From Saccharicrinis fermentans DSM 9555 = JCM 21142 (GTDB lineage Bacteria; Bacteroidota; Bacteroidia; Bacteroidales; Marinilabiliaceae), in assembly GCF_000517085.1 (NCBI RefSeq), contig NZ_KI912107.1:318425-382424 (forward strand): 64,000 nt of DNA, in the 5' to 3' direction. The position numbers and the translations under genes were made by a program. Below the pieces are notes generated by a model. The model was not told the origin of the DNA and did no database searches. It saw only the letters and a program-made list of their open reading frames with translations. Below, piece after piece: positions 38,474 through 55,609 of this stretch (position 1 is its first letter; every line of letters begins with the position of its first letter).

Positions 38474-38764
38474 ATGGATGTATCGCTTGTATATCGGAAG
38501 AATGAGCGTTTTGTGGAGAAAGCGATTGGTGAAGAAAAAGTGTTGGTTCCGCTAACGGATAATGTGGCTGATATGAATAAGGTCTATAATTTAAACGAAG
38601 TGGCCTCGTTTATTTATGATGCCATAGATGGAGTGAAGTCTATGGCAGATTTGAAATCAGTATTGTTAGAAAATTACGAAGTGACTGAGGAAGTGGCTTT
38701 GAATGATATTAAGTATTTTATTACCGATATGGTTGATAAAGGTGTTTTATCCATAAAATCATAG
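38474..38764 (+). CDS. PqqD-like peptide-recognition domain protein
   Basis: Stand-alone 96-residue protein with the PqqD/RRE fold. It begins with a beta hairpin (LVYRKNERFVEKAIGEEKVL), then DMNKVYNLNEVASFIYDAID, the family signature LNxxAxxIWxxxD with Tyr for Trp, then helical KSVLLENYEVTEEVALNDIK and FITDMVDKGVL. RRE domains bind the leaders of ribosomally made peptides and present them to tailoring enzymes. Here it is the first gene of a cluster with a short precursor, an HPr-kinase-like protein, a signal-peptidase-like protein and an ABC exporter. A TAATTTTG -7-like box lies at 38446-38453 with no clear -33 box. Confidence 0.85.
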   Translation: MDVSLVYRKNERFVEKAIGEEKVLVPLTDNVADMNKVYNLNEVASFIYDAIDGVKSMADLKSVLLENYEVTEEVALNDIKYFITDMVDKGVLSIKS

Positions 38765-38779
38765 TTGAGAATAGAATTT

Positions 38780-39016
38780 ATGATGATGAAAGGGAAAAAA
38801 TTGACAAAGAAAATATATTCAAAGCCCCAATTAGAGGTTGTTAATGTGGATCATGAGATCTCATTGGTGATGGCAAGTGTTCCGGACCCTGGAGAAGGAG
38901 GTGGAGGAGGTGATTTACCAAGTGCTAGTGCTGTGACATCCAGTCCGATTCCGGAATTTAATTCGTCTTCAGAAAGCAGTGTATTTGGAGGAAGTGCTCC
39001 GGACTATTCAAACTAG
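38780..39016 (+). CDS. Candidate RiPP-type precursor peptide with Ser-rich tail
   Basis: A 78-residue peptide encoded 15 bases after the PqqD-like gene. It has a basic start (MMMKGKKLTKKIYSKP), a hydrophobic/acidic leader motif (LEVVNVDHEISLVMAS), then a Pro/Gly hinge (PDPGEGGGGG). The 34-residue C-terminal part holds 11 Ser and one Thr but no Cys or Lys, ending in PDYSN. Leaders of the form KPxLExVxxDxEISL followed by a Gly-rich hinge recur in Bacteroidota beside PqqD and HPr-kinase-like genes, to my recollection. The TTG-initiated extension to 38765 is dropped in favour of the ATG at 38780 (38786 is also possible). Precursor identity is inferred from context and composition. Confidence 0.75.
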   Translation: MMMKGKKLTKKIYSKPQLEVVNVDHEISLVMASVPDPGEGGGGGDLPSASAVTSSPIPEFNSSSESSVFGGSAPDYSN

Positions 39017-39021
39017 GATGG

Positions 39022-39936
39022 ATGATGGTGGGTGAGCAGTGTTTTAGTGCGCAAATAGCAGACTTACATTTTACTTTCCAATGTCAAGATTCTCGAATTT
39101 TCTTGGATCGCCAAGGATCCATTCAAGCCTATTGCATAGATGGGGATGTTGAAAATTCTGATTATTTGTTTTCTTATGCTGTACGATCCGTTATCGATTT
39201 ATTCGATTATCAACTTACCTTTAGGGGAGAACCCATCAGTAACGATTTTCTTAATTACAGTTGGTATGTGTATACCCTGGGTGAGAAGGTGGCCATACGG
39301 GTGGAATTTAAAGATCATTCTGAAATTAAAAGTGTGTTAGCTGAGTTTGAGAAAGGTAAAACTCAGGTGAAGATAAGTCTTGTTTTAAAAACGGATTGCC
39401 ACAAAGCAGTGCGCTTGGACCCATTGATGCATCCGCTGGGATCTCTGTTGATGTTATATCTTGTGCAGGAGAAACAGGGACTGTTGATACATGCTTCGGC
39501 CATTGAAGATGGGGGACAGGGTATTTTATTCACAGGTGTTTCCGGCATAGGTAAATCTACCATGGCCCGTTTGTGGGGTGAGTGTGGAGCTTGTGTTTTA
39601 AATGATGATCGTCTGGTGCTTCGCCTGTTTGATCGTGAAGTGAGATTGTACAATAACCCCATGCCTTACTACAAACAAGCACCTAAACAGTCCATATTAA
39701 AAAAGATATTTTTATTAAAGCAGTCACCGCTTAACTATATACAGCCCTTGAAGGGTGTTCAAGCCTATTCGCGTGTATTGGGTAACTTTATTCAGCAATT
39801 TTATGAGCCCGCTATGGTGAAAAAGCACCTGGATATTGCGGAAGAGATCATAGCTAAGGTGGCTGTATACGAGGTGGGGTTTAAACCAGATACCGATATT
39901 GTACGTATGATGAGGGAAATGGACAGGTATGAATGA
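39022..39936 (+). CDS. HPr-kinase-like ATP-binding protein (putative peptide Ser kinase)
   Basis: Protein of 304 residues. The C-terminal half resembles the kinase domain of HPr kinase/phosphorylase and of lasso-peptide kinases such as PadeK. Its motifs are LLIHASAI (about 154-161), P-loop GVSGIGKS (172-179), then VLNDDRLVLR (192-201) with acidic residues expected to bind Mg, and YNNPMPYY. The N-terminal half is not recognised. No HPr or PTS gene is near, whereas a Ser-rich precursor is, so phosphorylation of that peptide is the natural guess. Its last codons overlap the next gene by 8 bases, so translation is coupled. Confidence 0.82.
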   Translation: MMVGEQCFSAQIADLHFTFQCQDSRIFLDRQGSIQAYCIDGDVENSDYLFSYAVRSVIDLFDYQLTFRGEPISNDFLNYSWYVYTLGEKVAIRVEFKDHSEIKSVLAEFEKGKTQVKISLVLKTDCHKAVRLDPLMHPLGSLLMLYLVQEKQGLLIHASAIEDGGQGILFTGVSGIGKSTMARLWGECGACVLNDDRLVLRLFDREVRLYNNPMPYYKQAPKQSILKKIFLLKQSPLNYIQPLKGVQAYSRVLGNFIQQFYEPAMVKKHLDIAEEIIAKVAVYEVGFKPDTDIVRMMREMDRYE

Positions 39937-40390
39937 TGCAAAAAAAAATAAGAAGTTATTTGAGCAGACATTTATTTCCTTATTAAATAAGGGTTGCGAT
40001 ATAGTATTGCCTGTGTTTGGTTTAAGTATGTTTCCTTTTATACTGCCTGGCGATGAAGTACGGGTGAGTCCGGTGAATTATGATGCCTTACAAGTAGGTG
40101 ATGTGATTGTTTTTGAGAATGGTGGACGCCTGGTGGCGCATCGTTTATTAAAAATAGATGTCTCAAAGGGATGGTTTATTTCAAAGGGAGACGGACTGAT
40201 GAAAGTGGATGGGAACAATAGATTGTCGGACGTTTACGGCTTGGTGGTTGGGCAATTCCGTCATCAACGAGCTATTAAATGGAGCAATACCTTATTTTTT
40301 AAGAAGAGCATGGCTTTTTTATCTCCGCTTGTGGGATATTTGAATTTTTATCTGGGGTTGGTATGGCATAAATATTTTAGAAGATCGTGA
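39929..40390 (+). CDS. S24/S26 family peptidase, SipW-like Ser/His type
   Basis: A 153-residue signal-peptidase-like protein. Catalytic Ser33 sits in PVFGLSMFPFILPGDEV, the S26 box. The position of the usual general-base Lys is occupied by His71 in RLVAHRLLKI, as in SipW and ER-type signal peptidases. One C-terminal hydrophobic segment (MAFLSPLVGYLNFYLGLVWH) may anchor it in the membrane. In this context it may cut the precursor leader (inference), acting before or during export by the ABC transporter 50 bases downstream. Confidence 0.8.
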   Translation: MNDAKKNKKLFEQTFISLLNKGCDIVLPVFGLSMFPFILPGDEVRVSPVNYDALQVGDVIVFENGGRLVAHRLLKIDVSKGWFISKGDGLMKVDGNNRLSDVYGLVVGQFRHQRAIKWSNTLFFKKSMAFLSPLVGYLNFYLGLVWHKYFRRS

Positions 40391-40440
40391 CAGTGCCTTT
40401 TCTTTTTTATTATCTTTTGGCTTTTATTTATTCATAAAGA

Positions 40441-42225
40441 ATGGCTCAGGTAAGTGGTAGAGATATAATACGATCATTACAATTAATATGGCAGAGTTCG
40501 AGATGGTGGACCATTGCTAATGGGCTGGTGCTGTTGTTAAAGGGGGTGATACCCCTCTTTCTGATCTTTATTATTCAACATTTGGTGGATCAGATTGGTC
40601 TCGTACTTTCGTCCGGAAATAAGGAAGTAGCCTTTGAAACGATAGGACAAGTATTGTTTTATGCAGGAGGTGTTTTTGTTTTAAATGCTGTTTTAAATTC
40701 GTTGGGCGGAATCATTAGAGAAAAACACTCCTTTTATATCAACGATGCAGTGCAGGATCTGATTCATCATAGAACGGTGAATCTGGATTTTGTAAATTAT
40801 GATGATTATCATTTCCAAAATATATATTACCGCGCAGTGAATGAGGCTGCCTACAGACCTTCGCGCATATATTACGGATTTATTCATCTACTTCAGAATA
40901 CGATTACTTTATTGTTGATAGGAGGTCTGCTGGCTAGTTTGCACTGGTTGATGTTGGTAGGACTTGTAATGGTTTCTATTCCGATTATTGTCATTCGTTT
41001 AAGATTTTCGCATAAAATTTATTCTTTTAAGAGAGAGCATACGCAAGAGGAGCGGTATGTTAACTATTATAACCGATTGCTTACAGGTAAGGAATTTGCA
41101 AAGGAGCGGCGGGTATTTAATTTATCTACGCTTTTTAAGAAAAGATATGAGGAGGCAAAAGTGGGGCTGCGTTACAAGCGGTTTAGATTATTAAAGTTAA
41201 AGACAAGCTATGAATTGCTTGTGCAGCTTATCACTGCGTTTACTTTGATTGCTGTGTTTGCTTATATTTCGAGGGAAGCTGTGGAAGGGAATATCTCTCA
41301 GGGGCAAACGGTCATGTTTTTTCTGGCATTGTATAGAGGTTATAGTTTCTTGCAGGATCTGTTGGGACAAATATCCGCTTTGTATGAGGATGGTCTATTC
41401 TTGAAAAACTTTTTTGAATTTGTGGACTATGAGGTTGTCAGTAGTAGAAAGGAAAGGTCTGCTACTTTTCCTGAGCCCATGAAGGAAGGTTTGCTGATTG
41501 ATCATATAAGTTTTAAATATCCCAACAGTTCCCGTCAGGTGTTTAAAAATCTTCACCTAAAGATCAATAAAGGAGAAACAGTTGCCTTGGTGGGGGCAAA
41601 TGGTGCAGGGAAATCTACACTGGTAAAGTTGCTTTGTGGTCTTTATGAGCCAGATAGTGGCGAGATATTTATAGATGATATAGCAATGTCTGATATTCGC
41701 TTGGAGTCTATGGCAGAAAATATAAGCGCTGTATTTCAAGATTTTATGCTGTATAATGTTTCGGCCAAAGAAAATATATGGTTTGGGAATATTACGAAAG
41801 ATAAAGACGATAAGGATCTTGTTTCTAGTGCAAAAAAATCAGGGGTACATCAGTTGTTGAAGGATCTCCCTCAGGGCTATGAGACTCCATTGGGCACTTT
41901 GTTTAAAAATAGTGAGATGTTAAGTGTGGGTGAGTGGCAACGTATTGCCTTGTCCCGTTCTTTCTTTAATGATGCGCAACTGGTTATTTTGGATGAGCCA
42001 ACTAGTTCGTTGGATGCATTTACCGAAGCAAAGTTGATTGATCATTTTAAAGCCATTACCGAAGGACGTACTGCTATTATAGTAAGTCATCGCATGTCTA
42101 CCATTCATATTGCAGACAGAGTAATTGTTCTAGATGATACAGGCGTGGCAGAGGAGGGGAGTCCTGAAGAATTGCTAAAGCAGAAAGGGGTATTCTATCA
42201 AATGTTAGCATCTTTCAAGAAGTGA
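40441..42225 (+). CDS. ABC exporter, fused membrane and ATPase domains
   Basis: Half-size exporter of 594 residues; it should act as a homodimer. The transmembrane domain has six helices over about 20-330, then an ATPase domain with Walker A LVGANGAGKSTLVKLL near 380-395. The signature LSVGEWQRIALSRSF has LSVGE in place of LSGGQ. Walker B is LVILDEPTSSLD, followed by the H-loop IIVSHRMSTI. There is no C39 leader peptidase domain, so leader removal would need the S26-like peptidase upstream. It is the last gene of the cluster and most likely exports the modified peptide. Confidence 0.9.
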   Translation: MAQVSGRDIIRSLQLIWQSSRWWTIANGLVLLLKGVIPLFLIFIIQHLVDQIGLVLSSGNKEVAFETIGQVLFYAGGVFVLNAVLNSLGGIIREKHSFYINDAVQDLIHHRTVNLDFVNYDDYHFQNIYYRAVNEAAYRPSRIYYGFIHLLQNTITLLLIGGLLASLHWLMLVGLVMVSIPIIVIRLRFSHKIYSFKREHTQEERYVNYYNRLLTGKEFAKERRVFNLSTLFKKRYEEAKVGLRYKRFRLLKLKTSYELLVQLITAFTLIAVFAYISREAVEGNISQGQTVMFFLALYRGYSFLQDLLGQISALYEDGLFLKNFFEFVDYEVVSSRKERSATFPEPMKEGLLIDHISFKYPNSSRQVFKNLHLKINKGETVALVGANGAGKSTLVKLLCGLYEPDSGEIFIDDIAMSDIRLESMAENISAVFQDFMLYNVSAKENIWFGNITKDKDDKDLVSSAKKSGVHQLLKDLPQGYETPLGTLFKNSEMLSVGEWQRIALSRSFFNDAQLVILDEPTSSLDAFTEAKLIDHFKAITEGRTAIIVSHRMSTIHIADRVIVLDDTGVAEEGSPEELLKQKGVFYQMLASFKK

Positions 42226-42657
42226 GGTGGTAAAAATACCTTACCATTTTATACCTATTGAAATGTGGATTAATCTTAGTTCGTAGGGCGTTATTTTTTG
42301 TCGGTTCATATCGCATGTAATTGAGGACAATTGTGCATGGAAAACTAGCGTAAGCTGGAAGATTTATTCTATAATGATTACTGCGATATTCATTGGGATG
42401 ATATATTTGTATTTTGATCTAAACAATGGAGTTGTTGGCTGTTTGTCAGGGAAATATAGTAATTGATATATATATAAATATGTATTTGTCCATTGGGTGT
42501 AACTTTTTGGAAGTTTTGCGTATAAAGATATGATTGGTTTTTTTAAAGTTTGTAGCTTACTTATTCAGGAATCAAGAGGAATATATTGTTGGAGGCGTTT
42601 TTACTATTTTATTTATTAGTTTTTTTGTTGTAGTAGCAGGGAGAGGAAAATATGATT
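42226..42657. other. Intergenic region before the first giant-protein gene
   Basis: 432 bases that should hold the ABC gene end and the promoter of the following gene. A 40-bp element (42487-42526) is shared with the upstream region of the second giant gene. Apart from that and a purine-rich GGGAGAGGAAAAT just before the start codon, nothing is recognised. Confidence 0.6.
42487..42526 (+). promoter_or_regulatory. Conserved upstream element of the giant-protein genes, copy A
   Basis: From TGTCCATT to GCGTATAAA, 32 of 40 bases match the element at 45440-45479. In both genes it lies about 130 bases before the start codon. It contains TGTAACTT and TTGCGTATAAA but no TAnnTTTG box, so it may be bound by an alternative sigma factor or a regulator (inference). 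Confidence 0.5.
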
Positions 42658-44937
42658 ATGAGGAAGATATGTAGTTTTTTGTTGGTGACTATTGGTGCCT
42701 TTATTGGTGTGTCTGGACAGGTTTATAGCACAACCGCAGATGGAGATTTTGATGGGGCAGTTTGGGATTATCCAAGTTGGGTTGGAGAGGGTCCACAAGA
42801 TGGGAAATTAAGTAAAGCGTGGCAAATTGATCATGTACTTACCCGAAACGGAGATGTTACTTCTACGCAGGCAGGAGCTATTTATGGAACCCTTAATGTG
42901 GTGGAGGGAGATTATAAAAAAAGCGGAGGAGGTTCGGATGTAATCTATGATGGAGGACGGCTTGAAATTTGGGGTAATTTAACGGCCACGCAGAAAATAG
43001 AAGTTAGAGACGGAGGATTGTTAATTGTACATGGTGATGCGAGTTTTAGCAACAGTGGTTCCCAACTGTCAGGAGATGTGATTGTGACGGGGAATGTTTA
43101 TTTGAAAAATACGGATGTGGTTAGCACCGGTAATTTAATTATAGGTGGAAATTTAGAAGTAGCGAATGGCGGTGGTAGTTTTAATGGAGATATCTATCAG
43201 TTGGATCCGGACGCTTCAACAACCTTTCCTAATTATAAGGATGTTGATGTTGGTGGGGAAGATGAGATGATGGAAGATGATGATATGGTTGATGTTTTGT
43301 TGGAGATTTTAGAGGATGCAGGTATGATAGAAGGGTCATTATTGCCGCCTCACCAATGGAATGGGGGAGAAAGTGATGATTGGTTTACTGCTGCTAACTG
43401 GACGTATGGAGTGGTACCAGATGCCAGTTCTGATATCACCATCGTCAATTCAGGAAATGCTCCTGTCATTGGTGATGGAGCTATTGCTTATGTAAATAAT
43501 CTGACCATTGAGGCAGATGCCTCTTTAACCTTGGAGCCGGGAGCACGTATGACCATTCAAGGCGATTTGATAACCAATGATCAGTTGACTGTAAAAAATA
43601 CGGTGGATGCTCCAGTATCTCTTATTGTGAATGGAAATGTAAATGGAGAGACTAATTATGAGTGGGAGGGAATGACTAAACAATTATGGTGGTATATTTC
43701 TCACCCTGTCACTGATGTTACGGAAACAGATTATGACAATTCGTATGGTGTAGGAAGATATGTTATAAACCGTTATTCTAAAGATAGTTGGTTTAGAGTG
43801 GCTGGTTATGTTAGTTCAGATGATATATATGATTTTAGTTCAGATCCAGATTCTGATGTCCAATTGGAAGGCTATGATTTGTACCCTGCTGAGGATGTTC
43901 CATTGAGATATGCAGGTGTATTAAATAATGAAGATTATTCACGGACTTATACCAAAGCACAATGGTGGCTAGTGGCAAACCCTTATCCATCCTATATGGA
44001 TGTGGAGGATGCTGGTTTTGATATGGGTAATTTTGGAAAGACGGTATATATCCGAAAAAGTGACAATTCCGTATCGGCCTATAATGTATTGAATGGAGTG
44101 GGGGTCAATGAAGGCTCGCGATATATCGCTCCTGGACAGAGTGTCTGGTTGAGAACCTACAATGCTACGGATTATGTGAATATTTCAACCACCGCACGGG
44201 TTCATGAAACGGGAGGGTATGGTTTAAAGAGTGGTAGCGCAGAAGAAAACGATCGACTTAGATTAGCGCTTTCTAGTGATCATGGGACAGACGAGATAGT
44301 GATGATTTTTAATGTAAATGGCTCGGAATTATATACGGCTTATGATTCAGAGAAATTATTTAATAGTGGAAACATTGCAAATCTTTATAGTGAAAAAGAT
44401 GGTAAGGATGTTGCAATTAATTTTTTACCTGAATTAGAGCCTGGTACCGTAATTCCTTTGTCTTACAAGGTGAATGAGGATGGTTTGAGTGATTTTACCA
44501 TTAGAGCTACGAATATAAACAGCTTTATTCCCGAGGTAGATGTATACTTGGAGGATAAAGAGGAAGGCGTTACCATCAATCTGAGAGAAACAGCTGAATA
44601 TACTTTTATACCTTTGGCAACCAGTACCAGTGATCGCTTTGAATTAAAATTCGAAGCATCTGTATCTACAGATATAGAAAGTAATGAGGCCGAAATTTCG
44701 CTGAATAATGTAACCATTTATGCGGTGAACCAAAAGGCTTATGTGGTAGTGTCTGAAGAGCTTTTGATGGCCGAAGACCGTGCGATTGAAGTCTATAATC
44801 TTTCTGGTCAGCTGAAGGCTCAGTATGTGTTGAATACCACAAAAACTGTGTTTGACTTACCTGAAAGTAAAACAATGTATATCATCAAGGTGAGTGTCGA
44901 TCAATCATCATATCAGGAGAAGGTGGTCGTATTTTAA
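42658..44937 (+). CDS. Large secreted protein with type IX-like C-terminal domain
   Basis: Exported protein of about 759 residues. The signal peptide MRKICSFLLVTIGAFIGVSG starts at the ATG at 42658, which aligns with the start of the paralogue; the ATG at 42652 is two codons earlier. Residues 20-200 form beta-strand repeats (NLTATQKIEVRDGGLLIVHG). A run of Asp/Glu/Met (EDEMMEDDDMVDVLLEILED) follows. Then come about 530 residues almost the same as the end of the 3334-residue neighbour, beginning PPHQWNGGESDDWFTAANWT. The last about 75 residues (EVYNLSGQLKA then MYIIKVSV) have the shape of a type IX secretion C-terminal signal. No enzyme motif is seen; a structural or adhesive role is likely. 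Confidence 0.85.
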   Translation: MRKICSFLLVTIGAFIGVSGQVYSTTADGDFDGAVWDYPSWVGEGPQDGKLSKAWQIDHVLTRNGDVTSTQAGAIYGTLNVVEGDYKKSGGGSDVIYDGGRLEIWGNLTATQKIEVRDGGLLIVHGDASFSNSGSQLSGDVIVTGNVYLKNTDVVSTGNLIIGGNLEVANGGGSFNGDIYQLDPDASTTFPNYKDVDVGGEDEMMEDDDMVDVLLEILEDAGMIEGSLLPPHQWNGGESDDWFTAANWTYGVVPDASSDITIVNSGNAPVIGDGAIAYVNNLTIEADASLTLEPGARMTIQGDLITNDQLTVKNTVDAPVSLIVNGNVNGETNYEWEGMTKQLWWYISHPVTDVTETDYDNSYGVGRYVINRYSKDSWFRVAGYVSSDDIYDFSSDPDSDVQLEGYDLYPAEDVPLRYAGVLNNEDYSRTYTKAQWWLVANPYPSYMDVEDAGFDMGNFGKTVYIRKSDNSVSAYNVLNGVGVNEGSRYIAPGQSVWLRTYNATDYVNISTTARVHETGGYGLKSGSAEENDRLRLALSSDHGTDEIVMIFNVNGSELYTAYDSEKLFNSGNIANLYSEKDGKDVAINFLPELEPGTVIPLSYKVNEDGLSDFTIRATNINSFIPEVDVYLEDKEEGVTINLRETAEYTFIPLATSTSDRFELKFEASVSTDIESNEAEISLNNVTIYAVNQKAYVVVSEELLMAEDRAIEVYNLSGQLKAQYVLNTTKTVFDLPESKTMYIIKVSVDQSSYQEKVVVF

Positions 44938-45604: not shown

Positions 45605-48600
45605 ATGAGAAAAATATACGCTGTTTTATTTGGGATGTTGTTGTTTGCAAGTGTAACTAAAGCGCAGGTAACAACTATTTGGTCTGATGATTTTGAAACC
45701 GATAAAGGGTGGATTTTATCCGGAGAATTTGAGAGAGGAACGCCTGACGGAGGGGGAGGAGATCATGGAAATGATAATCCAACTTCGGCTTATAGTGGAA
45801 GTTATGTGTTAGGTACAAATTTAGATGGGGGGTATGCAGATGATTTAAATGAACGTGAATATGCAGCTGTATCTCCGGTAATTGACTGTAGTGGAAAACA
45901 AAATGTGATGCTTAATTTTCAACGTTGGTTAAATGTTGAGTCAAGTGATTATGATTTTGCTTATATCGATGTGTATGATGGTTCATCCTGGCAGAATATT
46001 TGGACCAATGAAACGTCGACATTGACTGAGAGTTCTTGGTCGGCACAATCTATAGATATTTCTGCTTATGCTGATGGCAATAGCGGATTGCAAGTTCGTT
46101 TTGCATTGGGGTCTACAGATTATGGTTGGAATTACTCTGGTTGGAATATTGACGATATTGAGATAGCAGGTGAAATTGCAACATCAATTTCAAATGTTTT
46201 TACCAGTTCAGGTACTTTTACTGTTCCCAATGGAGTTACATCCATTACTGTAGAGTGTTGGGGAGCCGGAGGTGCAGGAGGAGGTTCTACATCTAATAAG
46301 AAAGGAGGATCCGGAGGTGGAGGCGGAGGTTATACTACGTCGGATCTTGTTGTAACCCCGGGTGAAGTTATTTCTTATACAGTAGGTGTTGGCGGTGTGG
46401 CAAGTACCGGAAATGGTGGTGATGGTGGCTCAACTAGCTTTAAAAGTTTAATAGCTGATGGAGGAACTGGTGGAGGACGTAATAAAGGAACGGTAGGAAT
46501 TGGAGGTGCTGGTTCAGGAGGGACAACCAATGTAACCGGAGATTCTGGAACTCAAGGAGGAAATACTGGAGGAGCAGGAGGGGCAGGAGCTAATGGTGGT
46601 GACGGTGGTGTTGGAAATGTAAAAAATACAAACGGTAATGACGGTAGTTCTCCTGGAGGAGGAGGAAGTGGTGGTGAAGCAACTAATAGGAATTCCTTTG
46701 CCGGAGGTAATGGAGCCGATGGACAAATTAATATAAGTTATGACCTTCCATTGGAAGTAGTTAAAACAACCTATTATTCGTATCGTTCCGGTAACTGGAG
46801 TGATATATCAACATGGACCCATGATCCGGGTGGTACAACGCAAACGGCGACTGATATACCCGGTGATGATGCCAGAGTGGTAATATTAAATGGTAGAACA
46901 GTTACCATGGATGTTGATGTGAGTCAGTCAAACTTGAACTTGGTTATCAATGATGGTGGTTTTTTAGATATGTCAAGCCATGTCTTTACCAATACCTTAA
47001 CTGAGTTAAGTGGAAAAGGTACCTTAAAGTTGGCCTCGGTTCACTTTCCAGATGCTACCACTAATTATCTGGTAGAAGCCGATGGAGGTATTGTGGAATA
47101 TGACAATTCCTCAGACTTTGATTTGCCAGTGGCACAAACCAGTTACAATCATCTTGTAATAAATGGAGCAGCCATTGCCACACAAAAACATGATTTAAAT
47201 ATTTATGGTGACTTACACATAAAGCAAGGTACATATCGTATCAACGATGGATCAGCTAATCGTTATGCCTTAACCATTGATGGTAATGTAACGGTGGATA
47301 GTGGAGCTGCTTTGACGGTAGGGACTGGTAAAACAACGTCCAATGATACCAGTGGAGGTACTGCTCCGTTTACAGATTATTATGCCAATAATACCCATAC
47401 GATTGTTGTTAATGGTGATTTTACCAATAATGGTAGTGTTAGACTGACCAATCAAAATTATCCAGTATATAATGCATTTCCAGACAATGGAGCTGCCACC
47501 GTTTATTTTAAAGGAACGACCGATAATACGCTGCTGTGTAACGGAACGACCGATTTTTATAATTTGGTATTGGATAAGGGTGTTGATAAAACATTTAAAT
47601 TAACGGTTTATGCATCAGCATATGATCATTTTCGTTTGTTTGGACGAAATAATTTAGGTAAAGAAGGTTCTGGATCTAATCCTAACTTACGTAAGGCACT
47701 TTGGGTACGCACCGGAACCCTTGAATTAACAGGTTTAACGATTATCCCGTCTCTAACAGAGGGAGGAGAAGATTTTATCGTTCCTGCTAATGGTGCTTTT
47801 TTAATGAATGGTACGGATGTGATTGTGTTATCTACGGCCAATAATTATGCAGAGGTAAATGCAGCTTATGGCTTAAGTGAATCCTCGGGAAATATACATG
47901 GCGTTTATGTTGGTGGTAATCAGGCTTTCTCCATCTATGGAAAGCTTCAGGTGGATAAAGGTTATTTGTCCAGTAGACGTTCTGGTGGTTTTATTACTTG
48001 GTCCGAATCATCTGGTGAGTTTATTATCAATGGAGGTCATGTAGATGCGCGTCAGATCAGATCCAGTACAGCAGATGCTTTGTCTTCTTTTAGTCAAACG
48101 GGAGGTTTGCTTACCTTAAGGGGTAGATTGTCCTTAGAGGAGAATCCTTCGACGCCTGCAGAAATTAGCGGTGCTGCTTTGTCTGGTAGTAGTTATACTT
48201 CCGATATTTCTAACTCCTATGGTACTTTTAGTATGTTTTTACCAGCCAGTGTATTTGCTATGTCTGGTGGTGAAATTGAAATATTGGATGTGAGCGGTTC
48301 TAATGGATATGCATTTGATGTGGCATCAGCCGCTAAGAATATTAATGTTACCGGAGGTACCATACGTTTTAAACCACAAGGAAGTAGCAACGAAGTATTT
48401 AAAATTCGGTCTACCGCTCCGTTTTATAATATGGTGATTGAGAATGAAGGCAGCGGTTCGCCAAGTGTTCAGTTGGTAGCTTATAGTAGTGGTGGAACTG
48501 ATATCGAAGGAGATAGAATCGTATTGAATGATCTGAGTTTAAGTAGTGGAAGCTTTAATGCCAATGGGTATGATGTTACGGTAGGCGGTGATTTTTCCTT

Positions 48601-51600
48601 GGCAGATGGAACTTCTTATACTACAGGTGATAATAGTACCATATTTAATGGTACGGAGGAGCAAAAATTAACGGTTGAATGGTCTTCGGCTTTAAGCTTG
48701 CATAAATGGGTAGTGAATAAGTCTGCCAGTCGATTATTATTGGATGGTTCACAAACTATTATTGATGTAGCAGATTCCTTGATTATTTATGATGGTGAAT
48801 TAAATGATAATAGCAAGACTATTCAGGTGGCTGGTAATATATATAATGCTGGTGTGCATTCTGGAGATGGTCTATTGCTGATGTCCGGTTCTTCTATAAC
48901 AGGTAACGGTTCTGGACAGTTTCAAAACTTACAACTTGATAGGAATGGAGAAATTTCGCTAGATGCCAATATTATTGTGAATGGTACTCTTACTTTTGCA
49001 AAAGATTATGTGCTAAACATAGAAACCAATAATATTAGTTTTGCGGCGGATGCAAGTATTGTAGGAAGTTCTTCTTCCCGTTATATCAAAACAGCAGGTA
49101 ATGCGGGTGATGGTGGTGTAACCTTTTCTTATAGCGCCATAACAGAGAAAACATTTCCATTGGGGGTAGATGCTTATACACCCGCTACCATTGGCTTTAC
49201 TTCGGCACCTTCTACTTATGGTGATATTACCGTTGTACCTGTTAACTATGAGCATCCAACAACGACGAGTGATGATGAGGCATTGGATTACTTTTGGCGT
49301 ATTTCGTCTACGGGATTTACTGGGGTGAACGGAAAGGTTTCTCATGAGTTTCATTATGATCAGTCAGATGTAGCAGCTAATGAGTCTGCCTATTTACCGG
49401 CTCGTTATGACGCGGCTTCTTATGCCTGGAACAAAGGAACTACCGCAGATGTTGTGGAAACAAATACGATCAATGATTGGTTTTTACCGAGTATGAGTGC
49501 AGATTATATTGATGGTGATTATACGGCAGGTTTAAATTCTGCTTTCGGAACTCCTAAAAAATATTATAGTAGGCAGTCTGGTTACTGGTATCAAAGTTCT
49601 ACATGGTCTACCAGCAGTCATACTGGTGGAGCAGCTTCCAGTATTCCCGGATCAGGAGATATTGTGATTATTGGTAACGGGCATACTGTATCATTACTAC
49701 GTTGGGATACCTCTGCCGATAGGAGTCCTCAGTATTGTGCTAGCCTGCAGATTGAAACGGGGGCTGTTTTGGATGCCACTTATAATCCGTCCAGTGATTT
49801 TGGGATGGTGATTTCACACCCCTCGGGCAACGGTAAATTTAGGGTGTCGGTGAATGATAACTCACAAAGTATATTTGAGTTCCCTAATGGTGATTTCTCG
49901 GACTTTAATGCCAATCTGGGTACAACTGAGTTATATACCAATAATGCTACAGCTGGCACCACTTATTGGTTGCCAGATGGAGTGGAAGAATATGGTAATT
50001 TAATGTTAAGTCCATTGGGTGGATCAAATATTATTTTCCCAAATCAGGACGTAACGATTTTAGGTGATTTAACTGCCGATGGACAAAGTTCTGAGTCATG
50101 GTATTGTCCTACATGGAATAGTAATTACCCGAATGGTTTCGCAAATAGAACACGTCAGGCTAAAACGATTACCATCAAAGGTGATTTTAATCTTGTTGGT
50201 GGAGCCCTGATTTATTATGGAAATAATAGTCTGGCCCAGGATTTTGTGATTGAAGGAGATCTTGTGGTGGCCGAGGATGCTGGTATTACGGTGTATAGTA
50301 ATGCCAATAATCAGAGCATTGCTATTGGAGGTGATTTAATCAATAATTCTCGATCTTCTGGAGGAGGTGCAAATGCATACAGGGGATGCGATTTTGAGGA
50401 CATTCCATTGACCTTTTTTGGTGATACAAATGCCAAAATAACGCAATCGGATGGTGTGTCTTACACTACTTATACTAATGTAGAGTCTATTACGGTGAAT
50501 AAGGGTAGCTCTCAAGCTACCTCACTGACTATGGATATAGCTGGTACAGTTTCTTATGAATCTACTGAATGGCTAAGTTTGGTGAATGGTACTTTTATCT
50601 ATAATAGAGATGCGGATGTCACCGTCAATACCAACAATAGCTTTACCATCCCTGGAACTGCGGGTTTAACCATTGATAGTAATAATGATTTTAATTTATG
50701 TCAAGGAAATGATGATGATTATGATGTGTATTTGAATGGTAAGCTAACGCTTGTGGATGGATCTCTCAATATAGGGAATTCATCCAATAATCGAAATAAC
50801 GATATTGAATATTCCGGAGGAGGACTTTCTGAAATAGATGTACAGGGAGGGAATTTGTATGTGAACGGTCAGATACGACGTAATCCGGCCTCTTCCGCAG
50901 GTATATTAAAATATAGTCAAAGTGGTGGTGATGTGACCATTAATGGTAGAAGTGCTTTAGCGAGCAATGCCAAGCTTGAAATATTGAATGTAGGAAGTGA
51001 ATTTAATATGACAGATGGTACATTGACTATTATGCGAGGTGGAGGTACCAGCTATGGTGATTTATATCTACGACCTGAGAAATATAACGTAACAGGAGGT
51101 GAAATTATTTTTGATAACTCTGGGGTCGGCGCACAAAATTATCTTTTGGATGCTAATATTTCGTTGAATGACTTGACCATTGATGGTAGTGGAGATGATG
51201 CCAGTGTGAAATTGATGCTGAGTCCATTAATCTTAGATGGTGATTTAACATTAGCTAATGCCTATAGTATTTTGGATGCCAATGCAACTTATAATGTGGC
51301 CTTAACGGTGAATGGTGATTTTGAGAATTCGGGTGTGTATAATTACTACGAAAATACAACCACATTAAATGGTGTAACACAGTATATTACAGGCTCTTCG
51401 GATATTGAATTTTATGATTTGGTGATTGACCCTTTAACAAAAGTAGCTTTAAGTAAGGATATTACTGTATATCACGATCTTAATTTAAATAGCGGAACCT
51501 TAGATGTGGGGGCGCATTCTATTTATGTGAAAGGCGATGTAATCAATAACGCCACTTATTCCTCTACAGGAAATGGGCTTGTGTTAGATGGCTCTGTGAG

Positions 51601-54600
51601 TCAGGAGATTTCCGGTACAGGAACTTTCGCCAGATTGGAGCTTAAAAATACTTCAGGAGCTACTACAGCAAATGATATTTCATTACAAGGTGAACTAGCG
51701 TTGACAAAAGGTGTGTTAAATATTGGTAGTTACTCGCTTTCTCTGGGAGAAACTGCATCTATATCAGGAATATTTAGTGAGAATACTATGATTACCACCA
51801 ACGGGGTTTATAGTAATAAGGGGGTTCAAAAGGTAATGCCTGCCGGATCATCTTCCTTTACTTTTCCTGTTGGAGTATCCGGAAAATATACACCTGCGGT
51901 GTTAAATTTTACGGCCAGTAGCAATGTGTCTACAGTGAAGGTTCACCCGGTTAATTCAAAGCATCCGGCTAATATTGATGATGCCAATGTGTTGGAATAT
52001 TATTGGGCAGTGGAGAGTGTTGGTTTGGTGGGAGCCAGTGGTTCTTTGGTGTTGAATTATAAGGATGAGGATGTTCAGGGGGATGATGCCAATTACTACG
52101 CAGAACGTTTGTTGGTTCCTGGTACTGCTTGGTCCGAAAGTAACTCAGTGGATGAGACAGCGAACCAGATTACCTTTACCCTGTCGGGTGATGATATTAG
52201 TGGCGAGTACACCGCTGGTTTAGATGCTGCTTTCCCCGATAATATACCTCAATATACCAGTACGATGAATGGCGACTGGTCTGATCCGACTAGTTGGACA
52301 CAAACCGGTGGCGATGCCTATACCTTAAGTGGTGCACCCAATGGTTTTATTGTGTATATTCAACATGATATTACTTTGGATGAGAATTTTGTTCAGGCGA
52401 ATAAGGTCATCATAGAATCAGAAGGTACCTTGAAAATTGATAATACTACCTATGGACATATTTTAAATAATGTATCAGGATCAGGTACAATCTATCTGGA
52501 AGATGGACAATTGCCAGAGGGAAATTTCGATGAATTTTTGAGTTGTAGTAATACTTCTACCTTAGAATTCGGTGGTTCAGGTGATTATGGTATTATTGCC
52601 GATTTGTTTAATAATGCTGCGAATTTAGTATTCTCAGGTACAGGAAGTAGAATATTACCCAATGCAGACTTAACGGTTTGTAAACAGTTATTGATAGATG
52701 GGCCTGTTTTGGATAATAGTTTGTATAATAGGGCTTTATATATTAATGGAAGCTTTGAAAGAGTCGCTGGTAGTTTTATTAGTGGAAGTGGATCTTCAGC
52801 CATCGTATCTTTTATTGGTTCTACTGAACAAAATTTAGGCGGTTTTAGTGGGGCAGACAATATGTTGAATAACCTTGAGATAGATAATAGTGCTGGATTA
52901 AGGCTAAATGATGACGTGGAAGTGGCAGGTACTTTGATTTTAACCAATGGAGTAATTCATACTTCGTCAGAGAACAGCTTGACCCTTACCAACACTGTAG
53001 GTGTGGGTGTTACACCGTCGGCCGGTACAGCCAACTCTTATGTGAATGGCCCATTGCGTAAGTGGATGAATCAGAGTGATTCATTTACCTTTCCTATTAG
53101 CTCAGATGGTGAGTTGGGAAATAAGCTGACAATAACTGCGGTTCGGACAGGAACCAAATTGTGGACGGCTGAATATAAACGACCTAATGGTACTTATGAG
53201 GATTATGCTTTTCCATTAACTGCTATCAATGCCCATGAGTATTGGAATCTATCTACTCCGGGTGGAGGTGAGGCGAAAATCCAACTGGGATGGGATTCTG
53301 GAAGTGATATTACGCCTGTGATGACTGAACATGGTCTTACGGATATTAGAGTGGTGAATTATGATGCGAGTAGCTGGCAGGAAATAGCATCCAGCGCTAG
53401 TGGAGCTGATGCAGCAGGTATCGTGATTACCAATAGTAGGGTGTATGTGAATGAGTCTGGTAGTGATTTCACAACTGCTACAGTGAATACCAATAAGCCT
53501 AAGGTACGTTTTAATCCAGATGAGGCAGTATGTGACTTGAGTACAGGTATTAAAGTAGAAATGACTTCTACTGTACCAACAGCTGCAGATTATGAATTAT
53601 CGTACACGATCAATAATGGTGCTACTCAAACAGTTACCGTAAGTAGCTTCCCATATTATTTGCCTACTCCAACCATTGGGGTGTATGCTTTAACCGGCTT
53701 TAAGTACGATAATAAAGTGAGAGAGGGCGTAGTGGATGTCACCGAATTTGAGGTCTTTGAAACACCGACAGCTGCTTTAGCAGGAGATGACCAGAGTCAT
53801 CAGGGACTTTCGCAAACCACTCTTGAAGCAAATACTCCTGTAGTTGGTTATGGACAATGGAGTATTGTGAGTGGAACAGGTGGATCCTTAGTAGATCCTA
53901 CAGATCCAATGACTGTATTTAATGGTACCAATGGTTCGTCCTATTTATTAAGATGGACGATCACCAATGGCGATTGTCAGTCGGTAGATGAGGTAGCTAT
54001 CGCATTCCCCATATTACCTCCACATCAATGGCAAGGAGCTATAAGTGACGATTGGTTTACTGCCGGTAACTGGACAGATGGTGTGGTTCCTGATGGTGTT
54101 GCGGATATTACCATTGCCAATGCTGGAAATGAACCTGTTATTCGAAGTGGAGCTATTGCCTATGTAAATAACCTGACCATTGAAGCAGATGCTTCCTTGA
54201 CCTTGGAACCGGGAGCACGTATGACCATTAATGGTGATTTAATTACCAATGATCAGCTTACTGTAAAAAATACGGTGGATGCGCCAGTATCTCTTATTGT
54301 GAACGGAACGGTAAGTGGAGAAAGTAATTATGAGTGGGATGGAATGACAAAGTTAGGATGGTGGTATATTGCCCATCCTGTATCTGGTGTAACTGAAAGT
54401 GATTATGACAATTCGTATGGGGTTGGAAGATATGCTATGAATCGATATTCAAAAGATAGTTGGTTTCGAGTAGCAGGTTATGTTAGTTCAGATGATATAT
54501 ATGATTTTAGTTCAGATCCAGATCCTGACGCTCAATTAGAAGGATATGATTTGTACCCTGCAGAGGATGTTCCTTTGAAATATGCAGGTGTTTTAAATAA

Positions 54601-55609
54601 TGAAGATTATTCCCGCACCTATACTAAAGCTCAGTGGTGGCTTGTTGCAAATCCTTATCCATCATATATAGACGTGGAGGATGCCGGATTTGATATGGGT
54701 AATTTTAGAAAGACGGTGTATATACGTAAAAGTGATAATTCTGTATCAGCCTACAATGTATTGAATGGTGTGGGTATCAATGAAGGTTCAAGATATATCT
54801 CTCCAGGTCAGAGTGTTTGGATGAGAACGCATAGTGCCACGGACTATGTTAATATTTCAACCACTACTAGGGTACATGAAACGGGAGGATATGGTTTGAA
54901 GAGTGGTAGTGAAGAAGGAAATGATAGAGTTAGATTACAGCTTCAAAGTGATTATGGTACTGATGAAACAGTCGTCATATTTAATGAAAATGGGTCCGAG
55001 TTCTTTACCGCCTATGATTCAGAGAAGTTATTCAATAGTGGTAATATTGCCAATATATATAGTAATAAGGATGGTAAGGAAATCGCTATTAATTCATTAC
55101 CTGAGTTAGAATCGGGTATGGTGATTCCTTTGTCTTACAAGGTTGAAGAAGACGGGTTGAGTGATTTTACCATTAGAGCTACAAATTTAAATAGCTTCAT
55201 TCCTGAAGTAGATGTGTACTTGGAGGACAAAGTGGAAGGGCTTTCTGTTAACTTGCGTGAAACACCTGAATATACTTTTATGCCTTTGACTACTAGTGCC
55301 AGTGATCGTTTTGAATTAAGGTTTGTAGAATCAGTATCTACAGGTATAGAAAGTGCTGAGGCTGAGATCTTACAGAGTAATGTCACTATTTATGCGGTGA
55401 ATCAAAAGGCTTATGTGAAGGTTTCAGAAGAGCTTTTAATGGCCAATGATCGTGTGATTGAGGTGTATAATCTTTCTGGACAACTGAAGGCTCAGCATGA
55501 GTTGAATTCCACTAAAACGGTGTTCGATTTACCTGATAGTAAAACAATGTATATTATCAAAGTGAGTATCGATCAATCATCATATCAGGAAAAAGTGATC
55601 GCTTTTTAA
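45605..55609 (+). CDS. Giant secreted beta-repeat protein with type IX-like C-terminal domain
   Basis: 3334 residues. Signal peptide at 1-21 (MRKIYAVLFGMLLFASVTKA). A MAM/jelly-roll domain at about 25-188 (WSDDFETDKGW to WNIDDIEIAG). A Gly-rich segment at about 194-378 (ECWGAGGAGGGS, many GG pairs). Then come long arrays of beta-helix-like strands divided by G8-like openings, each beginning SGNWSDISTW, SGYWYQSSTWS or NGDWSDPTSW (about 390, 1320, 2215). Two modules near 1160-1315 and 2065-2215 are paralogous (FPLGVDAYTPA / FPVGVSGKYTPA; DYFWRISS / EYYWAVES). The last 531 residues are nearly the same as in the preceding gene and end in a type IX-like signal (YNLSGQLKAQ, YIIKVSI). Probably a surface adhesin or matrix protein; no catalytic motif seen. 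Confidence 0.88.
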   Translation: MRKIYAVLFGMLLFASVTKAQVTTIWSDDFETDKGWILSGEFERGTPDGGGGDHGNDNPTSAYSGSYVLGTNLDGGYADDLNEREYAAVSPVIDCSGKQNVMLNFQRWLNVESSDYDFAYIDVYDGSSWQNIWTNETSTLTESSWSAQSIDISAYADGNSGLQVRFALGSTDYGWNYSGWNIDDIEIAGEIATSISNVFTSSGTFTVPNGVTSITVECWGAGGAGGGSTSNKKGGSGGGGGGYTTSDLVVTPGEVISYTVGVGGVASTGNGGDGGSTSFKSLIADGGTGGGRNKGTVGIGGAGSGGTTNVTGDSGTQGGNTGGAGGAGANGGDGGVGNVKNTNGNDGSSPGGGGSGGEATNRNSFAGGNGADGQINISYDLPLEVVKTTYYSYRSGNWSDISTWTHDPGGTTQTATDIPGDDARVVILNGRTVTMDVDVSQSNLNLVINDGGFLDMSSHVFTNTLTELSGKGTLKLASVHFPDATTNYLVEADGGIVEYDNSSDFDLPVAQTSYNHLVINGAAIATQKHDLNIYGDLHIKQGTYRINDGSANRYALTIDGNVTVDSGAALTVGTGKTTSNDTSGGTAPFTDYYANNTHTIVVNGDFTNNGSVRLTNQNYPVYNAFPDNGAATVYFKGTTDNTLLCNGTTDFYNLVLDKGVDKTFKLTVYASAYDHFRLFGRNNLGKEGSGSNPNLRKALWVRTGTLELTGLTIIPSLTEGGEDFIVPANGAFLMNGTDVIVLSTANNYAEVNAAYGLSESSGNIHGVYVGGNQAFSIYGKLQVDKGYLSSRRSGGFITWSESSGEFIINGGHVDARQIRSSTADALSSFSQTGGLLTLRGRLSLEENPSTPAEISGAALSGSSYTSDISNSYGTFSMFLPASVFAMSGGEIEILDVSGSNGYAFDVASAAKNINVTGGTIRFKPQGSSNEVFKIRSTAPFYNMVIENEGSGSPSVQLVAYSSGGTDIEGDRIVLNDLSLSSGSFNANGYDVTVGGDFSLADGTSYTTGDNSTIFNGTEEQKLTVEWSSALSLHKWVVNKSASRLLLDGSQTIIDVADSLIIYDGELNDNSKTIQVAGNIYNAGVHSGDGLLLMSGSSITGNGSGQFQNLQLDRNGEISLDANIIVNGTLTFAKDYVLNIETNNISFAADASIVGSSSSRYIKTAGNAGDGGVTFSYSAITEKTFPLGVDAYTPATIGFTSAPSTYGDITVVPVNYEHPTTTSDDEALDYFWRISSTGFTGVNGKVSHEFHYDQSDVAANESAYLPARYDAASYAWNKGTTADVVETNTINDWFLPSMSADYIDGDYTAGLNSAFGTPKKYYSRQSGYWYQSSTWSTSSHTGGAASSIPGSGDIVIIGNGHTVSLLRWDTSADRSPQYCASLQIETGAVLDATYNPSSDFGMVISHPSGNGKFRVSVNDNSQSIFEFPNGDFSDFNANLGTTELYTNNATAGTTYWLPDGVEEYGNLMLSPLGGSNIIFPNQDVTILGDLTADGQSSESWYCPTWNSNYPNGFANRTRQAKTITIKGDFNLVGGALIYYGNNSLAQDFVIEGDLVVAEDAGITVYSNANNQSIAIGGDLINNSRSSGGGANAYRGCDFEDIPLTFFGDTNAKITQSDGVSYTTYTNVESITVNKGSSQATSLTMDIAGTVSYESTEWLSLVNGTFIYNRDADVTVNTNNSFTIPGTAGLTIDSNNDFNLCQGNDDDYDVYLNGKLTLVDGSLNIGNSSNNRNNDIEYSGGGLSEIDVQGGNLYVNGQIRRNPASSAGILKYSQSGGDVTINGRSALASNAKLEILNVGSEFNMTDGTLTIMRGGGTSYGDLYLRPEKYNVTGGEIIFDNSGVGAQNYLLDANISLNDLTIDGSGDDASVKLMLSPLILDGDLTLANAYSILDANATYNVALTVNGDFENSGVYNYYENTTTLNGVTQYITGSSDIEFYDLVIDPLTKVALSKDITVYHDLNLNSGTLDVGAHSIYVKGDVINNATYSSTGNGLVLDGSVSQEISGTGTFARLELKNTSGATTANDISLQGELALTKGVLNIGSYSLSLGETASISGIFSENTMITTNGVYSNKGVQKVMPAGSSSFTFPVGVSGKYTPAVLNFTASSNVSTVKVHPVNSKHPANIDDANVLEYYWAVESVGLVGASGSLVLNYKDEDVQGDDANYYAERLLVPGTAWSESNSVDETANQITFTLSGDDISGEYTAGLDAAFPDNIPQYTSTMNGDWSDPTSWTQTGGDAYTLSGAPNGFIVYIQHDITLDENFVQANKVIIESEGTLKIDNTTYGHILNNVSGSGTIYLEDGQLPEGNFDEFLSCSNTSTLEFGGSGDYGIIADLFNNAANLVFSGTGSRILPNADLTVCKQLLIDGPVLDNSLYNRALYINGSFERVAGSFISGSGSSAIVSFIGSTEQNLGGFSGADNMLNNLEIDNSAGLRLNDDVEVAGTLILTNGVIHTSSENSLTLTNTVGVGVTPSAGTANSYVNGPLRKWMNQSDSFTFPISSDGELGNKLTITAVRTGTKLWTAEYKRPNGTYEDYAFPLTAINAHEYWNLSTPGGGEAKIQLGWDSGSDITPVMTEHGLTDIRVVNYDASSWQEIASSASGADAAGIVITNSRVYVNESGSDFTTATVNTNKPKVRFNPDEAVCDLSTGIKVEMTSTVPTAADYELSYTINNGATQTVTVSSFPYYLPTPTIGVYALTGFKYDNKVREGVVDVTEFEVFETPTAALAGDDQSHQGLSQTTLEANTPVVGYGQWSIVSGTGGSLVDPTDPMTVFNGTNGSSYLLRWTITNGDCQSVDEVAIAFPILPPHQWQGAISDDWFTAGNWTDGVVPDGVADITIANAGNEPVIRSGAIAYVNNLTIEADASLTLEPGARMTINGDLITNDQLTVKNTVDAPVSLIVNGTVSGESNYEWDGMTKLGWWYIAHPVSGVTESDYDNSYGVGRYAMNRYSKDSWFRVAGYVSSDDIYDFSSDPDPDAQLEGYDLYPAEDVPLKYAGVLNNEDYSRTYTKAQWWLVANPYPSYIDVEDAGFDMGNFRKTVYIRKSDNSVSAYNVLNGVGINEGSRYISPGQSVWMRTHSATDYVNISTTTRVHETGGYGLKSGSEEGNDRVRLQLQSDYGTDETVVIFNENGSEFFTAYDSEKLFNSGNIANIYSNKDGKEIAINSLPELESGMVIPLSYKVEEDGLSDFTIRATNLNSFIPEVDVYLEDKVEGLSVNLRETPEYTFMPLTTSASDRFELRFVESVSTGIESAEAEILQSNVTIYAVNQKAYVKVSEELLMANDRVIEVYNLSGQLKAQHELNSTKTVFDLPDSKTMYIIKVSIDQSSYQEKVIAF

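Follow-up and report, generated by a model that had tools for sequence, protein, structure and literature searches.

A near-core, LPP-like phosphopeptide pathway predicted in Bacteroidota, with precursor genes dispersed behind T9SS cargo genes

The window, a 64,000-nucleotide stretch of the Saccharicrinis fermentans genome, contains five co-directed, closely spaced open reading frames (ORFs) at positions 38474–42225, as given in the preliminary description of this DNA. Two T9SS cargo genes stand downstream of this cluster. The features are as follows.

38474..38764, + strand: discrete PqqD-like RRE, 96 amino acids (Pfam PqqD and orthologue profile; binding predicted)
38786..39016, + strand: precursor peptide, 76 amino acids (78 from the ATG at 38780), conserved in aligned relatives
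38816..38833, + strand: YSKPQL, the putative RRE-binding motif YxxPx[LI] of the leader (motif conservation; function known for BsfA and LppA)
38876..38878, + strand: codon of Ser31 (Y+20), the predicted phospho-acceptor (Ser or Thr in 89 of 89 precursors)
39022..39936, + strand: HPrK-like peptide kinase, 304 amino acids (motifs, AlphaFold2 model, and fold matches)
39929..40390, + strand: S26 leader peptidase of the archaeal/Sec11/SipW type, 153 amino acids (Ser33, His71, and Asp94; fold)
40441..42225, + strand: MsbA-like ABC exporter, 594 amino acids, without a C39 peptidase of its own (family searches)
42222..42244, + strand: terminator-like hairpin where the ABC gene ends (pattern match only)
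42652..44937, + strand: T9SS cargo protein, 761 amino acids, 3' of the cluster, a possible partner (TIGR04183, 29.7 bits)
45605..55609, + strand: giant T9SS cargo protein, 3334 amino acids, with a C-terminal TIGR04183 match and a glycine-rich domain, a possible partner

A search for an RNA element found none, and promoter patterns showed no excess over shuffled sequences.

The PqqD-like protein matches the Pfam PqqD model at 51.9 bits (cut-off 23.4) and is encoded by the single PqqD gene in the window's genome. A profile of 18 orthologues matches the solved RREs of lasso peptide and linear polyphosphorylated peptide (LPP) systems (9x90, TbiB1, 9x8z, and TfuB1). The lasso RRE 9x90 scores level with or above 9x8z (LppB), and the window RRE is at least as close to lasso RREs as to LppB. 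The function of the YxxP motif has been shown for BsfA (PMC10368454) and LppA (PMC13381572). By analogy, the RRE is predicted to bind the YxxPx[LI] motif of the leader, which is YSKPQL here, rather than the sequence EISLVMAS that had been proposed previously.

The small ORF starts at the ATG at 38780 or 38786 and encodes a leader followed by an acidic core rich in Pro, Gly, and Ser. Read from the ATG at 38780, it has the 78 residues, and the 34-residue tail with 11 serines, that were originally reported. The peptide matches no known family in Pfam, NCBIfam, or PHROGs. Its alignment is conserved among 16, and then 30, relatives, with changes at the third codon position outnumbering those at the first and second, and a profile of it has matches in 56 of 100 relatives. 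Together with the conserved gene order, these observations indicate that the small ORF is more than a chance reading frame. In a 394-genome sample of the phylum, the only distant matches to the profile are two genomes of a single genus; in the order sample, precursor matches are limited to genomes that match the window RRE strongly.

The aligned small ORFs share the YxxPx[LI] motif, an Asp at Y+11, and Ile-Ser at Y+14/15. We collected 89 non-redundant precursors using the Tyr..Pro motif and the Asp as the anchor. The Pro and the Asp at Y+11 belonged to this anchor, and the Tyr is present in 88 of the 89. The residue at Y+20, which lies outside the anchor, is Ser in 55 and Thr in 34, with nothing else occurring, making it the sole hydroxyl residue fixed across all precursors. 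Ser or Thr without a third residue is the pattern expected of a kinase acceptor, and the phospho-acceptor is likely this single Ser/Thr, Ser31 at the leader/core border of the window precursor. The preliminary description had assigned this role to the tail serines. We rejected their phosphorylation as the defining reaction because the only fixed hydroxyl residue is at Y+20, and the number of tail serines varies. Each core does contain at least one further Ser or Thr, so a second phosphorylation site is possible.

The kinase matches Hpr_kinase_C and HprK-related models, with scores under their cut-offs. It contains His157, a P-loop (residues 172–179, GVSGIGKS), and Asp195-Asp196-Arg197. His157, the P-loop, and Asp195-Asp196 are kept in an alignment of 22 kinase relatives, and the same His, P-loop, and Asp-Asp residues were needed in BsfK (PMC10368454). 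The AlphaFold2 model (pLDDT 93.4) resembles PEP carboxykinases (Z 14.0 over 239 residues), and its C-terminal domain resembles HPr kinases (Z 11.7, 2.4 Å over 116 residues). The features of the HPrK/PEPCK superfamily are all present, namely the His, the P-loop GxSGxGKS/T, the Asp-Asp pair, and the HPrK fold; the kinase assignment, against which a lack of ATP-binding geometry on modeling would have counted, holds up.

The peptidase scores 42.1 bits against sigpep_I_arch, under the cut-off of 51.85. Its Ser33 and His71 are invariant and Asp94 is nearly so among 21 relatives; in LppS, residues S29, H68, and D93 are essential (PMC13381572). By sequence, SEC11 subunits are its nearest relatives of solved structure, with SEC11C at the top, and the fold matches signal peptidase I with a Z score of 10.3. 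Family searches identify the ABC protein as MsbA-like. In two genomes (loci L043 and L045), the S26 domain forms the N-terminal part of the ABC exporter, which suggests coupled cleavage and export. This fusion is a serine-protease counterpart of C39-containing exporters: as in the C39 PCATs, peptidase and exporter appear to act together, but the PCAT peptidase is a cysteine protease, whereas here it is an S26 serine protease, encoded separately from the exporter in the window. At another locus (L050:9616-13039), the kinase and S26 genes are separated by an HTH-methylase-TdeIII restriction-modification set, apparently an insertion.

Scanning with the kinase gave seven loci, all in related genomes (Labilibacter, Saccharicrinis, and Plebeiobacterium). 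In each of them the genes run tsaD-PqqD-small ORF-kinase-S26-ABC, and a TamB-sized gene on the opposite strand precedes tsaD. The locus is at fixed synteny in its family, in which 55 of 60 genomes have a PqqD match. On these grounds it behaves as a near-core, vertically inherited element, and the check that had been suggested for the small ORF, conservation in other copies of the cluster, comes out in its favor. Other families of the order have the gene set as well, with variations. No S26 or ABC gene adjoins the kinase in G219 and G309, which represent a distant family. A plasmid-borne system was considered and dropped, having come down to a single weak match, in Butyrivibrio.

The window's genome encodes a second precursor paralogue 3 Mb away, located 33 bp behind a gene whose 1558-residue product has a T9SS sorting domain; a terminator-like repeat comes after this precursor. 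Within the family, 25 of the 31 dispersed precursors examined are directly downstream of a T9SS cargo gene (–1 to 49 bp), a cargo call being a C-terminal match to TIGR04183. By the same call, the window's genome has 56 T9SS cargo genes, ~1% if a total of 5,000 is assumed. The dispersed loci are in many cases orthologous and hence not independent; grouping by neighbors leaves 12 separate contexts with T9SS versus ~10 dispersed copies without. Counting against the linkage, ten dispersed precursors are not immediately preceded by a T9SS gene. Six more cargo-precursor pairs occur in other families of the order, the distant family has a T9SS cargo gene directly upstream of the precursor in five of five cases, and at nine loci a T9SS gene is next to PqqD itself or immediately precedes it. 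These 20 C termini all match TIGR04183, some weakly. The dispersed precursors mostly share transcript direction with the cargo gene in front of them, and from this placement directly behind T9SS cargo genes we infer that the peptides most likely work with T9SS surface proteins, a role that is the main hypothesis on this system. A gene of ~240 codons before many dispersed cargo genes was rejected as a part of the system, as it codes for a methyltransferase and is part of a single syntenic locus.

The dispersed and cluster precursors differ at their ends. Dispersed precursors (L087:9570-9764 and similar) end in NPFG/E, and cluster precursors in PFGG[SN]xPDY; both core types seem to be retained together in a single genome. 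In a distant family, precursors of 45–47 amino acids with proline-rich cores end in AQS, TQS, QEF, or QDF (L210-L214), and all of these short precursors are behind T9SS cargo genes.

The closest known system is the LPP pathway, shown experimentally in Bacillota (PMC13381572, Nat Commun 2026). The P. alginolyticus lpp cluster and the window have in common a discrete RRE, a YxxP leader, an HprK-like kinase, a SipW/archaeal-type leader protease with Ser, His, and Asp, an MsbA-like exporter, and a linear core for which no cyclase is needed. This parallel supports the original proposal that RRE, kinase, S26 peptidase, and exporter act on a linear precursor. Unlike the LPP clusters, the window has no NTP transferase among the five genes and their immediate neighbors. 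The LPP leader consensus YxxPxVLxHQxIxFETxxS is likewise not followed, the window family keeping YxxP only, with Asp at +11, Ile-Ser at +14/+15, and Ser/Thr at +20 in place of HQxIxFETxxS. Because the NTP transferase in the cluster and the full leader consensus are both lacking, we regard the system as an LPP-like variant rather than assigning it to the LPPs. The LPP paper describes these peptides as confined to Bacillota and without a known biological role, with a patchy, transfer-driven distribution typical of conflict genes (PMC13381572). In contrast, the window system belongs to Bacteroidota, is near-core and vertically inherited, lies outside a capsule locus, and has peptidase-exporter fusions as well as dispersed precursors behind T9SS cargo genes. 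As far as the open-access literature shows, neither the presence in Bacteroidota and the near-core inheritance nor the dispersed precursors and the T9SS linkage have been described, although a prior description is possible.

Similarities extend to phosphorylated lasso peptides. The Bsf system (BsfA/B1/K, PMC10368454) has a YxxPxL leader and the same kinase catalytic motif; BsfK is an RRE-stimulated HPrK-like kinase that phosphorylates core Ser3 and accepts Thr (PMC10368454). The spacing from the Tyr to the acceptor is 20 residues here, 19 in BsfA, and 18 in LppA. Bsf, however, has a B2 protease and a lasso cyclase, which the window cluster lacks. The paeninodin and pseudomycoidin kinases PadeK and ThcoK (PMC8498205) are likewise HPrK homologues that act on a RiPP precursor, but they target the C-terminal Ser of a lasso core, whereas the window precursors have no conserved C-terminal Ser.

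We propose, with a probability of about 0.78, that the locus encodes an LPP-like pathway of RRE binding, phosphorylation, leader removal, and export, whose peptides most likely work with T9SS surface proteins. The discrete RRE would bind YSKPQL in the precursor, and the HPrK-like kinase would phosphorylate the one conserved Ser/Thr, Ser31, just beyond the leader. The S26 serine peptidase would then cut off the leader near residues 26–28, and not near the PDPGEGGGGG hinge as first suggested. By analogy, the cut would follow residue 26 (Y+15) when the distance is measured from the Tyr as for LppA, or residue 28 (Y+17) when the acceptor is taken as the third core residue, its place in BsfA and LppA. 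The MsbA-like exporter would carry the acidic core into the periplasm. Sequence evidence establishes the gene set, its conservation, the catalytic motifs and folds, and the T9SS linkage, from which phosphorylation and its site, the cut site, export, and the T9SS role are inferred. The same machinery would also serve precursors encoded elsewhere in the genome, as it must if these are to be matured with only one RRE gene available. The core of the earlier model is therefore retained, with the leader motif, acceptor, and cut site revised and with the additional precursors and T9SS coupling, which it had missed, now included.

The lasso-type RRE and YxxPxL leader motif could also be accounted for by a degenerate lasso cluster in which an unlinked Asn-synthase-like enzyme cyclises the core and the S26 peptidase replaces B2, and Asn-synthase homologues do exist in the genome. 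However, a B2 protease was not found anywhere in the window's genome with a search that detects B2 in four other genomes (G006, G007, G033, and G037). Those four are the ones among 100 relatives in which B2 exceeded the cut-off, and none of them has a precursor match, so that B2 and the precursor family never occur together in this set. A lasso macrolactam cyclase was not found within the cluster, and the genome has two full-length Asn-synthase homologues besides fragments at L034-L036; the full-length pair, which was scored, reaches 520 and 414 bits versus an asparagine-synthase cut-off of 267, and 258 and 177 versus a lasso cyclase cut-off of 525. They look like ordinary glutamine-hydrolysing asparagine synthases. 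The earlier statement that the lasso enzymes are missing thus extends to the whole genome for the protease, and for the cyclase it agrees with the cluster and these two scores. A lasso cluster with an unlinked B2 or cyclase was rejected accordingly, and as the cores have no conserved ring-forming spacing either, we consider the degenerate lasso reading highly improbable.

An exporter and a small acidic core would equally suit a secreted antimicrobial or signaling phosphopeptide with incidental T9SS neighbors, and the patchy, conflict-gene-like occurrence of the Bacillota LPPs points in this direction. The near-core status and fixed synteny of the locus in its family argue otherwise, as do the lack of a recognised immunity gene and the recurrence of the T9SS linkage in 12 contexts, and we find this explanation unlikely. 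The evidence tying the small ORF to the enzymes is from sequence, and dispersed copies come after cargo genes; it is conceivable from this that the ORF encodes a protein that regulates or chaperones the enzymes or T9SS cargo and is neither cut nor phosphorylated. Such a protein would hardly be expected to have an RRE motif with an invariant Ser/Thr at a fixed distance, or to be confined, in the order sample, to genomes with a strong match to the window RRE, which makes this reading improbable.

Within the preferred LPP-like reading, a more specific and tentative idea is that the phosphopeptides are dedicated partners of T9SS cargo, made together with it, matured by one pathway, and needed for the cargo to fold or to be displayed, retained, or anchored on the cell surface. 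We hold this to be possible but short of probable. If true, a RiPP would here serve as part of a secretion or surface system and not as a diffusible product. A near-core Bacteroidota version with T9SS-tied precursors would extend the LPP class to another phylum, and the T9SS tie, in many contexts and a distant family, would give the first concrete, testable lead on function. RRE-Finder reported roughly 4,000 lasso-type RREs without lasso enzymes (PMC7470986), some of which the window-type pathway may account for.

Among class-level Bacteroidota relatives, S26, PqqD, HPrK, and ABC genes also occur inside a capsule/polysaccharide-export locus (L092:3306-12056 and L094:2642-11482) with glycosyltransferase, Poly_export, and Wzc-like genes. 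YxxP precursors were sought in the capsule-linked clusters L091, L092, L094, and L097, and none were found. NTP_transf_5 is also present in the L092 capsule locus, where it was checked, and the L092/L094 arrangement is close to that of the Bacillota LPPs.
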